52,171 nucleotides of DNA, taken from NCBI GenBank assembly GCA_905234285.1, contig CAJOHK010000024.1:1-52171 (forward strand), read 5' to 3'. Below are positions 3,367 through 44,271 of this stretch, piece by piece (position 1 is the first letter of the stretch; each line of letters begins with the position of its first letter). The DNA is from an uncultured Bacteroidales bacterium. Its GTDB lineage: Bacteria > Bacteroidota > Bacteroidia > Bacteroidales > UBA932. Made by a program: the position numbers and the translations under genes. The notes under the pieces are model-generated. The model saw only the letters and a program-made list of their open reading frames with translations, was not told the DNA's origin and searched no databases.

Positions 3367-3983
3367 AGTTCTTGGATATACTTGTGCAAGTGCTTGGGCA
3401 GCAATTGCTTAAAACGGTCTTTTGTTCCCTTGGGGACGCATATCTCTTCCAGGGATTCGCAGTCGTCAAAGACATCCTGGCCGATAGCTTCCAGTTCTTT
3501 GTTAAGCCGGACACGGTACAGGTTGATGCAGCCCTGGAACGCGCCGTCGCCAATCACGCGGACATGCGCCGGCAGGCTGATCTTTTCCAGCTGCCAGCAG
3601 TCCATGAAGGCCGACGCTCCAATGGAAAGCAAACTGGCCGGAAGCTTGATGGACAGCAGTTCCCCGCATTCGGCAAAGGCGCCCACCCCGATGTGCGTAA
3701 CCGAGGCCGGCAGATGGATCTTTTCCAGGTAGGAGGAGCGCTCCTCCAGGGGAATCTCTTCGCCGACTTTCCTGTCGGCCATATAGTCCTGGAAGGCAAA
3801 GACGTCGTTGCAGATGATTTCGCAACCATCACGCACGGTAATCTCTGTGGGAAAATTCTCGGCGTCCAGCAGGCGTTTTCCGTCGGCCGAATAGCTTACG
3901 CAGTTGTCGCTGTCCCAAACGTCCCGGCTCAGCTCTTCCTGCGACGCTGCTGTGGGGACGGACAAAATCGATTCCAGAGTCAT
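3363..3983 (-). CDS. BspA-type leucine-rich-repeat protein
   Basis: A 206-residue protein built of about four BspA/Treponema-type leucine-rich repeats (LRR_5). Each has the pattern LPASVTHIGVGAFAECGELLSI, with the invariant IG..AF..C.L core, between about residues 88 and 185. There is no signal peptide, unlike most surface BspA proteins, so it is predicted to be cytoplasmic. The four-base overlap with the pseudouridine synthase gene suggests co-translation. A binding or scaffolding role is the usual reading of this fold; the partner is unknown. Confidence 0.75.
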   Translation of the reverse strand: MTLESILSVPTAASQEELSRDVWDSDNCVSYSADGKRLLDAENFPTEITVRDGCEIICNDVFAFQDYMADRKVGEEIPLEERSSYLEKIHLPASVTHIGVGAFAECGELLSIKLPASLLSIGASAFMDCWQLEKISLPAHVRVIGDGAFQGCINLYRVRLNKELEAIGQDVFDDCESLEEICVPKGTKDRFKQLLPKHLHKYIQEL

Positions 3984-4506: not shown

Positions 4507-4537
4507 TTTCGTCTGTCGCCGGGCTTTTGTATCTTTG
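4507..4537 (+). promoter_or_regulatory. Bacteroidota-type promoter for btuG-btuB
   Basis: TATCTTTG at 4530-4537 is a consensus -7 box, with a TTTCG element at 4507-4511 eighteen bases upstream. The predicted transcript begins around 4542, just before the first paired stem of the cobalamin riboswitch. Confidence 0.8.
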
Positions 4538-4545
4538 TAACGGAT

Positions 4546-4708
4546 TATGGTGATTTGCCGGTGTCTTTCCGGCGGCTTAATAGGGAATCCGGTGCAAATC
4601 CGGGACTGTGCCCGCAGCTGTGTCGTCCATATCGGCTCCCATTCCATGCCATTGTTCCACTGAGGAATGAGAAGGCGGGAGCCGGGATCAGTCAGAAGAC
4701 CTGCCATA
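4546..4708 (+). promoter_or_regulatory. Cobalamin riboswitch
   Basis: The region has the conserved cobalamin aptamer blocks in order: TAATAGGGAATCCGGTG, then AAATCCGGGACTGTGCCCGCAGCTGT, then CCACTGAGG, then a B12-box-like CAGTCAGAAGACCTGCC. The outermost helix can form between TATGG (4546-4550) and CCATA (4704-4708). It lies between the promoter and btuG. In this class cobalamin binding usually represses uptake genes. A short GGGA/TCCC hairpin (about 4734-4745) just before the start codon could belong to the expression platform. The roughly 315 bases between the divergent genes hold only this element and the two promoters. Confidence 0.96.
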
Positions 4709-4763
4709 GTCAAGTTAAACAAGGGGGCTCGGGGACAAGTCCCGGTTAAAACGATAATCTATC

Positions 4764-20954: not shown

Positions 20955-21784
20955 TCCGCTATTCCGTCATAGTGCCTTACAGGGGAGAGCCGGAGCTGCT
21001 GAAGCGTGCCTTGGCTTCCATTCCTTCGCGGGAAGACATACAAGTGCTGGCCGTTGAGGATACCGATGGCCGCGGAGCCGGATGGGCCCGCAATCAAGGC
21101 CTGGCGCAAGCGAAAGGGGAGTGGCTGGTGTTTTTGGACGCCGACGACTTCTTTCTACCGGGGGCATTTGATGTTTTGGACCGTCATGCCTCCAGGGAAG
21201 AGGATATTGTCTATTTTGATATTACCAGCGTATACTCAGATTCTTTGGAATCGTCTCCCCGGCATCTTGTCCGTTCGGGCATGCTTGGGCGTTATGCGTC
21301 CCGTCCTTCGATGGTGCAGTTTTATTGCCGGTATCTTTATAATGAGCCCTGGGGCAAAATGATTCGGCGTTCGCTGGTGGCTTCCCGCAGAATCCGTTTC
21401 GACGAGACCCTCTGTGCCAACGACTATTCTTTTTCTGTCTTCTGTGGTCATTATGCTGCCGAGGTGGCCTATGATTCTACTCCCGTGTATTGTGTGACCG
21501 AACGGGACGGAAGTGTGAGCGCCAGTTATTTTGACTCGCCGGACAAAATCCATGACCGCCTGGCGGTGTACTGGAAGGTGCAGCGCTTCTTTGACAGTAA
21601 CCGCATCCCTCTGCAACCCTTCTATGGCCTCTGGATGATGTGCCGGAAAGAGGGTGGTAAAACGCTTTCAATTGCCCGGTCCTTCTGCGAATTCCGACAG
21701 ATTTCCCGCTGGCAGCTTTGGTGGGGATGTGCCCGGAGAGTATGGAGAAAACGCCTCCGTAGGGGAGTGCCTTATTGTGCTTGA
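20951..21784 (+). CDS. Family 2 glycosyltransferase
   Basis: A 277-residue GT-A fold glycosyltransferase: YSVIVPYRGEPELLKRAL at the N terminus, then WLVFLDADDFFLPG with the metal-binding DxDD (about residues 62-66). Sugar donor and acceptor are unknown. The ATG at 20951 overlaps the flippase stop, so translation is coupled; the longer upstream frame lies entirely inside the flippase gene and is not used. It is the first of three GT2 genes in a short surface-glycan cluster between glnS and secA. Confidence 0.85.
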   Translation: MIRYSVIVPYRGEPELLKRALASIPSREDIQVLAVEDTDGRGAGWARNQGLAQAKGEWLVFLDADDFFLPGAFDVLDRHASREEDIVYFDITSVYSDSLESSPRHLVRSGMLGRYASRPSMVQFYCRYLYNEPWGKMIRRSLVASRRIRFDETLCANDYSFSVFCGHYAAEVAYDSTPVYCVTERDGSVSASYFDSPDKIHDRLAVYWKVQRFFDSNRIPLQPFYGLWMMCRKEGGKTLSIARSFCEFRQISRWQLWWGCARRVWRKRLRRGVPYCA

Positions 21785-21792
21785 CCCGTGTT

Positions 21793-22806
21793 ATGCCCGA
21801 AGTGAGTGTTGTCTTAGTTTGCATGAACCGTCCGGACATCCTGTATCCTTGTCTGGATAGCTTGTTTGCGCATACCTCTGTCTCCTATGAGGTGTTGGTG
21901 GTGGCGTACCGTTTTTCTCCCGAAAACCTGGCTCAACTTAGGACAAATTATCCCTGTGTTCGGGTGGTAATTTCTGATGAGGTCCGAGGCTTTTCGGAGA
22001 ATAACAACCTGGCCCTTAGGGAGGCCCGCGGCCGGTATTGCTTTGTGGTAAATGACGACACCCTGATTTCCATGCCGGTCGTCGACCGCCTGCTGGAAGA
22101 TTTGTCCAGGTTGCCGGCTACTGCAGCTGCTATCAGTCCTTGCATCCGCTTCGCCGACGGTCGCATCCAAACCTGCGGCCGCACGCCCTGGACGCCTTGG
22201 CGGTATGCTAAGCATTATTTGCATTTGGTGGACGAAGGAGGTGCGGGGCTTCCGGGGAACTCCGTTCGCTGCGCTCACTCCGGCCCCTCCCATTGTCTCC
22301 TGCGTCCCCTCCCCCTACCCGTGTGCGGGGGTGCACACGTCCCTGGAAGCCCCACACCTCCTTCGTCCAACCTGTTTCAAACCTATACGTTAAACGGCGC
22401 ATGTTTCCTCATTAAGACAGAGGTGTTTAAGAAGGTGGGGTGGTTTGATGAAAGGTTTTTCTTTACGCCTGAGGATATCGCTCTGGGGCATGCGCTGAAT
22501 GAGGCCGGATATACCGTTTGGGTAGATCCGGACGTGGATATTACCCATCTGGCGGGCGGCTCGGTTTCAAAGATGGAAGCGGCCATCAAACCGGCGCGGG
22601 TGCGGGGCTCTTTGCTGTTTTATGGTGAGCCTTTGTGGCTTCGCTGTTTTATCTGGTGCTTTGAGGCCATGAGGGCTTTTAAATATCTGTTTTTGCCTCG
22701 CACGGAGCGGAATCTGCTTATGGCCCGTACGGCCCGGAATGTGATGCGAACGGCTTTCTCCAAGGCCTCTCCAAAGGAACTCTTTATCCGTTTTAGTCAT
22801 GAATAA
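21793..22806 (+). CDS. Family 2 glycosyltransferase carrying an in-frame palindromic insertion
   Basis: A 337-residue GT2 enzyme: PEVSVVLVCMNRPDILYPCL at the N terminus, VVNDDTLIS as the DxD-like motif (about residue 95), and a conserved LNGACFLIKTEVFKKVGWFD segment followed by an FFTPEDIALG acid motif. Between them, about residues 146-192, lies a Pro/Gly/Cys-rich stretch of 47 codons that looks foreign. It is encoded by a 141-bp element with 30-bp inverted ends (22229-22369). The frame is kept. The start is the ATG at 21793, 8 bases after the preceding stop; the stop overlaps the next glycosyltransferase start by 8 bases. Whether the enzyme tolerates the insertion is unknown. Confidence 0.8.
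   Translation: MPEVSVVLVCMNRPDILYPCLDSLFAHTSVSYEVLVVAYRFSPENLAQLRTNYPCVRVVISDEVRGFSENNNLALREARGRYCFVVNDDTLISMPVVDRLLEDLSRLPATAAAISPCIRFADGRIQTCGRTPWTPWRYAKHYLHLVDEGGAGLPGNSVRCAHSGPSHCLLRPLPLPVCGGAHVPGSPTPPSSNLFQTYTLNGACFLIKTEVFKKVGWFDERFFFTPEDIALGHALNEAGYTVWVDPDVDITHLAGGSVSKMEAAIKPARVRGSLLFYGEPLWLRCFIWCFEAMRAFKYLFLPRTERNLLMARTARNVMRTAFSKASPKELFIRFSHE
22229..22369 (+). mobile_element. MITE-like palindromic element inside a glycosyltransferase gene
   Basis: A 141-bp element bounded by 30-bp inverted repeats (22229-22258 and 22340-22369) matching at 28 of 30 positions. An inner hairpin is also present: CGTGTGC at 22320-22326 with GCACACG at 22333-22339. It has no coding capacity for a transposase. 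Its length is a multiple of three and it has no stop in the host frame. No clear target-site duplication is visible. Confidence 0.75.
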
Positions 22807-23458
22807 GCGCGTTCTGGTCATAGTGGTAACGTATAACGGCATGCGGTGGCTGGATTGTTGCCTTGGCTCGGTTGTATCAGACGCCGATCTGTATGTCTGG
22901 GACAATGATTCTACCGACGGAAGCGCGGACTTTGTGGCTAAGAATTACCCGGCCGCAACGCTGGTCAGAAGTGCCGAAAATTTAGGATTTTCGCGACCTA
23001 ATAATTTGGGCGTAGAATATGCCATTAAAAACGGCTATGATTACGTCTATTTCCTGAACCAGGACGCCTGGCTGGACCCCGGCGCTTTGCAAAAAATGCT
23101 TGCAGCCTCAGAGGCCCATCCGGACTACGCCGTTCTCTCCCCGCTCCAAATGACCGACGGCTACCAGGCTCTTGACCATAACTTCGCCAAATGCCTCCCC
23201 TCGTGCACAAAAATGGCCGAATTTGTTCCCCTGTCGGCCAAAAACGGAGTCTCGTGCACAAAAATGGCCGAATTTGTTCCCCAGTCGGCCAAAAACGGAG
23301 TCTCGTGCACAAAAACGGCCGAATTTGTTCCCCAGTCGGCCAAAAACGGAATCTCGTGCACAAAAATGGCCGATTTTGTTCACCAGACGGAAAAATGGCC
23401 GATTTTGTTCACCAGACGGCCGAAAACGGGAATTGGTCGGTCGAGATACCGGCGGTGA
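22799..23458 (+). CDS. Family 2 glycosyltransferase, N-terminal part (gene split by repeat duplication)
   Basis: A 219-residue product holding the N-terminal half of a GT2 glycosyltransferase (rhamnosyltransferase-like). It has VLVIVVTYNGMRWLDCCL, WDNDSTDGSADFV, NLGFSRPNNLGV and YFLNQDAWLDPG (DxD-like, about residue 85), up to LDHNFAKC near residue 133. It then runs into three 17-residue repeats (SCTKMAEFVPQSAKNGV type) plus a fourth, diverged one. A 29-bp tandem duplication in the fourth repeat shifts the frame, ending the protein about 20 codons later. The missing C-terminal half follows in another frame. Without one copy of the duplication the two halves would join as a 349-residue enzyme of normal size. 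Confidence 0.75.
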   Translation: MNKRVLVIVVTYNGMRWLDCCLGSVVSDADLYVWDNDSTDGSADFVAKNYPAATLVRSAENLGFSRPNNLGVEYAIKNGYDYVYFLNQDAWLDPGALQKMLAASEAHPDYAVLSPLQMTDGYQALDHNFAKCLPSCTKMAEFVPLSAKNGVSCTKMAEFVPQSAKNGVSCTKTAEFVPQSAKNGISCTKMADFVHQTEKWPILFTRRPKTGIGRSRYRR

Positions 23459-23877
23459 TTGAGGTAAAACGCATTATGGCGGCGCACTGGCTGGTACCGG
23501 TGTGGGCGTGGGAACGTGTGGGGGCGTTCAATGAGGAGCTGTTCCCGCTATATGGCCAGGATGATGACTGGTGCAACCGGGCGCGGTACTGCGGTCTAAA
23601 AATCGGCGTGGTGCTTGCTGCCAGGGCTGTGCATGACCGGGCCTACAGGAAAGAGGGGGTTGAGCGGCTTGTGTCCCGGAATTACTACACGGGATCGCTG
23701 GTGCGGCTGGCTAACCCTAATCGTGCTTTGTGGCTTACCTGGCCCTATGTTTTCCTGTTTACGCTGGTAAAGGCGGTGAAGTATCGTAGCATATTGCCAT
23801 TCAAATATTTACGTGCAATACTTAAGCAAATGCCGGCTGTGAAAGCCTCGCGTATGCATGAAGTGCACGCGCGATAA
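23191..23877 (+). pseudogene. Family 2 glycosyltransferase, C-terminal part in a shifted frame
   Basis: The frame here reads the C-terminal half of the same glycosyltransferase. After the repeat array come VIEVKRIMAAHWLVP, ERVGAFNEELFPLYGQDDDW (the conserved acceptor/acid region) and a C-terminal amphipathic segment. The true coding content begins near 23434; the ATG at 23191 in this frame only reads through the repeats and is unlikely to be a natural start. The segment is out of frame with the N-terminal half because of the 29-bp duplication. Either the gene is broken, or it is switched on and off by gain and loss of that copy. Confidence 0.75.
23201..23433 (+). repeat. 51-bp intragenic tandem repeat array with internal 29-bp duplication
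   Basis: Units begin TCGTGCACAAAAAYGGCCGA at 23201, 23252, 23303 and 23354. The first three are 51 bp and nearly identical. The fourth is diverged and contains a perfect 29-bp direct duplication (23362-23390 and 23391-23419), making it 80 bp. The first three units each contain a 7-bp inverted repeat that is GGCCGA/TCGGCC at its core (for example TGGCCGA with TCGGCCA in unit 1), and could form a hairpin. The array codes for 17-residue repeats. Confidence 0.92.
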
Positions 23878-43852: not shown

Positions 43853-44271
43853 AAGGGTAGTCTCCTATAAATGGCCAATATATATCTTCTGAAGGGCTTG
43901 ATGGCGCGCCAAAAACGGCCTTTGCCCGGAATGATTTCTCTTTTTCCCTTTTGGATGGCCACCACGGTGCCCATCACGTCGCTGCGCCGGCAACTCTCGG
44001 TTCCCACAATATTTCCGTCGCCCATGAGGGTTACCTTTTCTCCTTCCAGGGCAATGATGCGGTGCAGGACGTATCGGCCCTGCAAACGTACCAGCACAAT
44101 GTCTCCCACCTCCAGGCTGTCTTTCTTTTGCAGCCGTACACTGTCGCGTCCGCCGCGGATGTAGGGGAGCATGCTGCTCCCGAGGGGCGTAAAACTCACT
44201 TCGCGACCTTCGTCCAGGAGGCTTCCGACTTCCTCCAGGAACACTTCGTTGGAAAGGATGCGCTTATCCAT
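43849..44271 (-). CDS. S24/S26-type peptidase-like protein
   Basis: A 140-residue protein with the signal-peptidase/LexA fold. FTPLGSSMLPYIRGG (about residues 27-41) contains the SxMxP-type nucleophile serine, and VLVRLQGRYVLHRIIALEGEKVTLMGDGN matches the beta-strands around the catalytic base in S26 peptidases. The usual lysine is not obvious: RYVLHRI stands in its place, as in several archaeal-type enzymes that use His. A membrane anchor is not clear. Location between the HPr-kinase-like and PqqD-like genes suggests leader cleavage of a peptide. Confidence 0.75.
   Translation of the reverse strand: MDKRILSNEVFLEEVGSLLDEGREVSFTPLGSSMLPYIRGGRDSVRLQKKDSLEVGDIVLVRLQGRYVLHRIIALEGEKVTLMGDGNIVGTESCRRSDVMGTVVAIQKGKREIIPGKGRFWRAIKPFRRYILAIYRRLPL

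Follow-up and report, generated by a model that had tools for sequence, protein, structure and literature searches.

The best-known cases of palindromic elements lying in frame within conserved genes come from Rickettsia, and Chanin and colleagues reportedly described, in 2024, DNA inversions within genes of gut bacteria. The Rickettsia palindromic elements (RPE) are dispersed among conserved genes that are unrelated to one another and are translated there in frame, as set out in the available sections of two accounts (PMC10969869, PMC2229807). The REP sequences are multi-copy palindromic repeats, some of which lie within coding regions, and the accessible part of one paper gives a loop of 4-5 bases for the CGTC repeats (PMC3733652). 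BrickBuilt of Porphyromonas gingivalis is a dispersed minisatellite with a 23-nt unit, exclusively intergenic according to the portion of the text at hand (PMC4596501). For the genus considered here, the entries listed by a Bacteroidales-focused search, judged by titles and abstract openings, included no literature on in-frame elements. Here we describe a glycosyltransferase gene of an uncultured Bacteroidales bacterium that carries a palindromic repeat array within its coding sequence and is broken by a short duplication. The whole stretch of DNA that was analysed, 52,171 nt long, is referred to as the window, and its features are collected in Table 1.

Table 1. Position of the repeats, genes and RNA features discussed in the text; coordinates refer to the window unless a genome stretch (L093) is named.
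Feature	Position	Strand	Remarks
GT2 gene, N-terminal half	22799..23458	+	ORF of 219 aa; PF00535 match; frame crosses the array, stop past the duplication
Frame with GT2 C-terminal half	23191..23877	+	ORF of 228 aa; relatives of the C-terminal half; first 80 codons are array and duplication
Conserved C-terminal part of the enzyme, 3' of the array	23431..23874	+	translation; matches in related genomes
51-bp (17-codon) palindromic repeat array	23200..23390	+	TRF counts 3.7 units, the translation four; repeat dispersed through the genome
29-bp duplication, first copy	23362..23390	+	perfect pair; TRF
29-bp duplication, second copy	23391..23419	+	frame shifted by 2; TRF
Neighbouring GT2 gene, open frame	21775..22806	+	ORF; PF00535; E2 in the homologous loop, compared with homologues
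E2 in the neighbouring GT2 gene, in frame	22229..22369	+	141 bp; 30-bp inverted arms at 22229-22258 and 22340-22369; 81-bp core
Small SRP RNA, Bacteroidales	1751-1858	minus	Rfam
Cobalamin riboswitch	4531-4722	plus	Rfam
Paired palindrome TGCGGTAGGTGGT, three copies	L093 2538-2632, 3633-3727, 5386-5480		

The sequence-only reading had held that a GT2 gene at 22799-23877 is split between two frames, and both half-length ORFs were indeed found, that of the C-terminal half being offset by 2 bases relative to that of the N-terminal half. In a Pfam scan the N-terminal ORF matched PF00535 (Glycos_transf_2) at an E-value of 1.6e-13, and no family was matched by the C-terminal ORF scanned alone; the conserved part 3' of the array was matched in 35 of 120 related genomes (its own genome counted). 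An intact, near-identical natural protein of 298 aa, here called P0005, is encoded on a 2035-base public contig and also matched PF00535. Its predicted model matched the structure of GalNAc-T2 (E 2.6e-13, TM 0.67 by query) as well as WrtF structures, both of which we take to be of the GT-A type, and by this match the enzyme is predicted to have a GT-A type fold. None of the three forward frames has a stop within the array region, so that the half-frames share 268 bp, and a net shift at any point of this overlap would rejoin the N- and C-terminal frames. Taken alone, the 51-bp unit is open in all six frames; of 5000 shuffles of its letters, 213 had no stop in any forward frame.

At the break stands a perfect 29-bp tandem duplication, as had been read from the letters: its two copies are identical and directly adjacent. 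Besides this pair, TRF lists in the window the 51-bp array and an unrelated short array at 44199, and a scripted scan of the window for perfect tandem duplications with a period of 20-119 gave this one alone. The accompanying argument on the frame also holds, 29 being 2 modulo 3, and the removal of one copy leaves a single frame of 350 codons including the stop (1079-29 = 1050, by arithmetic only). The duplication is known here from the assembled sequence of a draft genome (63 contigs, 77.88% complete), and near-identical unit arrays are difficult to assemble, which together with the intactness of P0005 counts for the view that the assembler made an extra 29-bp copy in the array of a gene that is truly intact. 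Against this, the 21-mer across the junction of the duplication occurs once in its own genome even at up to 3 mismatches (one chance match was likewise obtained with a reversed control), and a mis-join to another array was rejected on this ground, although such a result argues against mis-joining and not against every assembly error. Furthermore, a collapsed or over-counted array would be expected to alter the length by 51 bp, not by 29. We therefore consider an assembly error unlikely. The duplication could also be one allele of a mixed population.

P0005 has one 17-residue unit where the window gene has four, and the difference in length (349-298 = 51 residues) equals 3 x 17; for copy-number change in this very gene this is the one comparison at hand, P0005 being the only near-identical allele of the same species that was found. 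The 29-bp duplication is absent from its single unit. The two proteins differ at 3 of 134 residues in the N-terminal half and at 9 of 148 in the C-terminal half, five of these nine falling in the first ten residues beside the loop, and past the break only 4 of the last 138 residues differ. If instead the enzyme had been lost from the lineage and its gene were a fixed, decaying pseudogene, the frame break would be accounted for, and the cysteine at residue 20, a position held by arginine in 184 of the 187 proteins that could be read (this protein included; 10 of 197 were unreadable), could mean a longer decay. So few differences from P0005 on both sides of the loop, in frames that are otherwise open, make this very unlikely. 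The same observations, with the intactness of a near-identical protein, uphold the earlier view of a gene that is not dead, as far as its close relatives are concerned.

In a survey of the genus, 124 of 300 genomes (the window's own included) were matched at an E-value of 1e-40 or better. Among the matches listed, 18 other genomes gave the two halves as separate segments with open frames equal in length for both, whereas the window's genome gave unequal open frames of 237 and 231. In the comparison with intact homologues that had been suggested, P0005 is whole, and these 18 genomes are single-framed. The gene of G267 had been taken up as a half-length candidate and was rejected, as its contig ends within the gene. 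Close relatives differ in length by regular steps. Six proteins that are 97-99% identical outside their loops (P0012, P0026, P0031, P0030, P0097 and P0118) measure 358, 341, 341, 324, 307 and 307 aa, and P0039 and P0069, of 370 and 353 aa and 99.6% identical, differ by one exact 17-residue step. Judging from these sequences, near-identical proteins vary in copy number with the frame kept, by whole 51-bp units.

These ladders bear directly on the proposal that slippage between the perfect 29-bp copies toggles the enzyme on and off within the population. One part of it stands, in that arrays in the loop do vary in length; the switch itself is not supported, as the unit that varies is the 51-bp one, which preserves the frame. 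The perfection and adjacency of the two copies would suit a switch, and surface-glycan genes are often phase-variable, both as general knowledge and in the available part of a review (PMC11868660). Half-length relatives broken at the same loop are likewise consistent with it: P0024, P0063 and P0066 end in or just past loop B, and P0142 and P0181 start directly past it. Some of these proteins may have been cut by contig ends, and they leave room for recurrent breaks, hence for a switch. Yet the 29-bp repeat is present in just two copies and, once collapsed, would have no tandem partner to regain from, which would make it a poor reversible switch, and no second allele with such a duplication appeared among the homologues and genome matches listed. 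On these grounds we regard a switch as quite improbable.

The array lies in one loop of the enzyme. The P0005 model has a mean pLDDT of 92.2, and the block of residues 141-150 inside the repeat-bearing loop a mean of 59, so that the array loop is of low confidence and predicted to be flexible. Its length could be measured in 186 of the 196 homologues listed, with a median of 36 residues and a 5th-95th percentile range of 23-87. Genome records gave a measurable loop in 72 of 80 cases, the motif search having failed in the 8 that were left out, and the loop had at least 40 residues in 30 of the 72; nearly all of these records are labelled as assemblies of Bacteroidales or Bacteroidia, and ruminants are the source of many; among the few others are one labelled Lachnospiraceae and one labelled Bacteroides fluxus. 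Inverted arms scoring at least 14.5 were present in the loop DNA of 18 of the 72 records, and ten shuffles each peaked at no more than 12.

On balance we favour the explanation that the last unit was partially duplicated, by 29 bp, in a sporadic slippage mutation that would inactivate this copy. A dedicated on/off switch seems less likely, since the gene is whole in a near-identical strain and relatives vary in whole-codon steps. A palindromic repeat, mobile or copied, would probably have entered the loop of the GT2 gene, and it may have been tolerated because its unit is 17 codons long and open in every frame and the loop is predicted to be flexible. Whole units are gained and lost, presumably by slippage, with the frame kept, as the 17-residue steps between near-identical proteins show. 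Slips by a number of bases not divisible by three break the gene, as the off-register 29-bp duplication does in this sequence. The copy is predicted to be inactive because its truncated product would lack the conserved C-terminal half.

The repeat of the array is dispersed through the same genome. The 51-bp unit consists of a short palindrome and a spacer; with up to 2 mismatches allowed, its core was found 26 times, including 4 in this array (reversed control 0). A looser form of the palindrome gave 107 matches on the forward strand and 97 on the reverse, with none for the control; a single palindromic site is often scored on both strands. We examined 41 element clusters in 29 stretches of the genome, which cover a part of the sites of the 51-bp repeat. 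Among 27 other clusters of the palindrome (at most 1 substitution), 3 lay at the end of a contig and 3 were spanned by an open frame, and a Pfam scan of two of these three frames matched no family. A recognised gene holds the 51-bp repeat at 1 of the 28 sites examined, namely this glycosyltransferase. Neighbouring palindromes in the stretches examined are spaced by 51 bp (17 of 39), 52 bp (14), 103 bp (7) or 104 bp (1), and since the 51-bp spacing also occurs in non-coding arrays, such a period does not set genes apart. Neither the array nor E2 was matched by Rfam, and across 8 sources only the small SRP RNA and the cobalamin riboswitch reached the gathering score.

E2, the element carried by the neighbouring GT2 gene, belongs to a second dispersed family. 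A search of its own genome gave 26 matches, 3 of which were the window copy and its arms; the other 23 fall at 16 sites, and complete copies span mostly 121-187 bp. At 8 of the 17 sites the element is in frame in a gene recognised by Pfam, the hosts, named from their Pfam families, being truB, truA, a SpoU methylase, an M20 peptidase, an aminotransferase, murB, murE and the glycosyltransferase; some copies, such as those in the murE and aminotransferase genes, are short fragments. Apart from the window copy, these in-frame members lie in stretches L092, L094, L095 and L100 of the genome. Over 20 nt, the arms of 11 readable copies are complementary to a mean of 0.96 within a copy (lowest 0.85); for the 110 pairs formed between copies the mean is 0.61 and the 95th percentile 0.85. 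Because the arms differ between sites, an arm used as the query matched the window's own arms alone. An inverted open reading of the window's own E2 was tried and rejected, as it contains 1 stop. A murB-like gene (L095 9652-10995, minus strand) seemingly has two inserts of different families, and an insert from the glycosyltransferase loop of G285 matches C31:14116-14228 of the window's genome, within the same murB-like frame.

Relatives of the gene differ in what their loops contain and in how it is oriented. Between L153 and L179, 188 bp are 97% identical in opposite orientation while the flanks, about 93% identical, run in one direction. A similar arrangement is seen between L132 and L137, at 86%. 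The proteins P0033 and P0044 (318 aa each) have 35 differences, 27 of them in the core, and P0141 and P0152 (343 aa each) have 46, of which 36 are in one block. In all four of these pairs, the opposite-orientation cores between the same arms are open both ways. Inversion within the gene is a possible reading of such pairs of related sequences. Three further proteins that are 97-98% identical outside their loops, P0136, P0125 and P0128, have respectively no insert, a short insert and a full insert. The loop insert of G005 had 14 matches in its own genome (itself included) and was matched in 7 of 8 other genomes searched, G051 having no match; that of G285 had 32 in its own genome (itself included), many on both strands. 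Dispersal in the own genome therefore held for the window's 51-bp repeat, its E2 and the inserts of G005 and G285, and the loop-A unit of G317 was found only once in its genome, so that dispersal of every loop insert was rejected as a general rule.

Across the genus, the loops of this gene and of its neighbour thus hold many translated dispersed repeats, some of them in both orientations between the same arms. It is conceivable, though on the doubtful side, that the genus shares a machinery for diversifying loops, the GT2 loop being the hottest target, in which in-frame palindromes would rewrite the loops of glycosyltransferases and housekeeping enzymes through gain and loss of 17 codons, flips of the core between site-specific covarying arms and rare frame-breaking slips. 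This wider pattern of translated dispersed loop repeats is more interesting than the frame break alone. A gut Bacteroidales genus with elements in truB, truA, murB, murE and glycosyltransferase loops constitutes a natural comparative test of whether such elements are neutral passengers or a source of protein variation, into which the unit ladders and the two core orientations among close relatives feed. The locus also cautions against calling a frameshift within an array of this kind a switch unless population reads bear it out.

How these repeats relate to described families differs from one family to another. With BrickBuilt, as far as it is described in the text available (PMC4596501), they share dispersed short tandem repeats in the same phylum, but here the 51-bp unit is translated inside an enzyme. 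The likeness to the GTAG- and CGTC-tagged REP sequences lies, on the accessible account, in many-copy palindromes some of which are in coding regions; the palindromes of the 51-bp family, however, have a loop of 8 or 9 bases, against the 4-5 given there for CGTC repeats (PMC3733652). Within 16 bases of these palindromes (n=66), GTAG was found 0 times and CGTC 12 times, and two control words 8 and 4 times. The genome, 78% complete, has 3 Y1_Tnp genes, and the 6-7 kb around each contained no 51-bp palindrome. Because the tags are near control levels and no RAYT is linked in the stretches seen, the 51-bp family is not filed as REP. A RAYT-like gene in L093 (2635-3504, minus strand) is flanked on either side by a copy of the paired palindrome TGCGGTAGGTGGT, and a third copy lies farther out; together they are perhaps a REP-RAYT unit of another family. 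A second such gene in L091 (2022-2936, minus strand) has 100-nt palindromic repeats nearby (1781-2016 and 3648-3747).

Slippage contingency loci, in the part of the review available (PMC11868660), resemble this locus in having frame-altering tandem repeats in a gene of the surface-glycan type. In phase variation by slippage the variable unit is not a multiple of three, which fits the 29-bp unit, present here as two copies in the single allele known, whereas the unit that varies is 51 bp, a multiple of three. Intragenic inversions, like the flips proposed here, alter coding sequence; ours are drawn from pairs of sequences in relatives, and the window's E2 is not open when inverted. With the Rickettsia palindromic elements, as partially described (PMC10969869, PMC2229807), E2 shares dispersal, terminal inverted repeats and an in-frame position in unrelated conserved genes; its complete copies, mostly of 121-187 bp, compare with about 105-150 bp for the Rickettsia elements, a description that does not suit the 51-bp array. 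It differs from them in coming from another lineage, in arms that vary by site and in the occurrence of related glycosyltransferase-loop cores in both orientations. The 51-bp repeat is further removed from the Rickettsia elements, as it forms a tandem array and, in contrast to E2, lies in a recognised gene at just 1 of the 28 sites examined.
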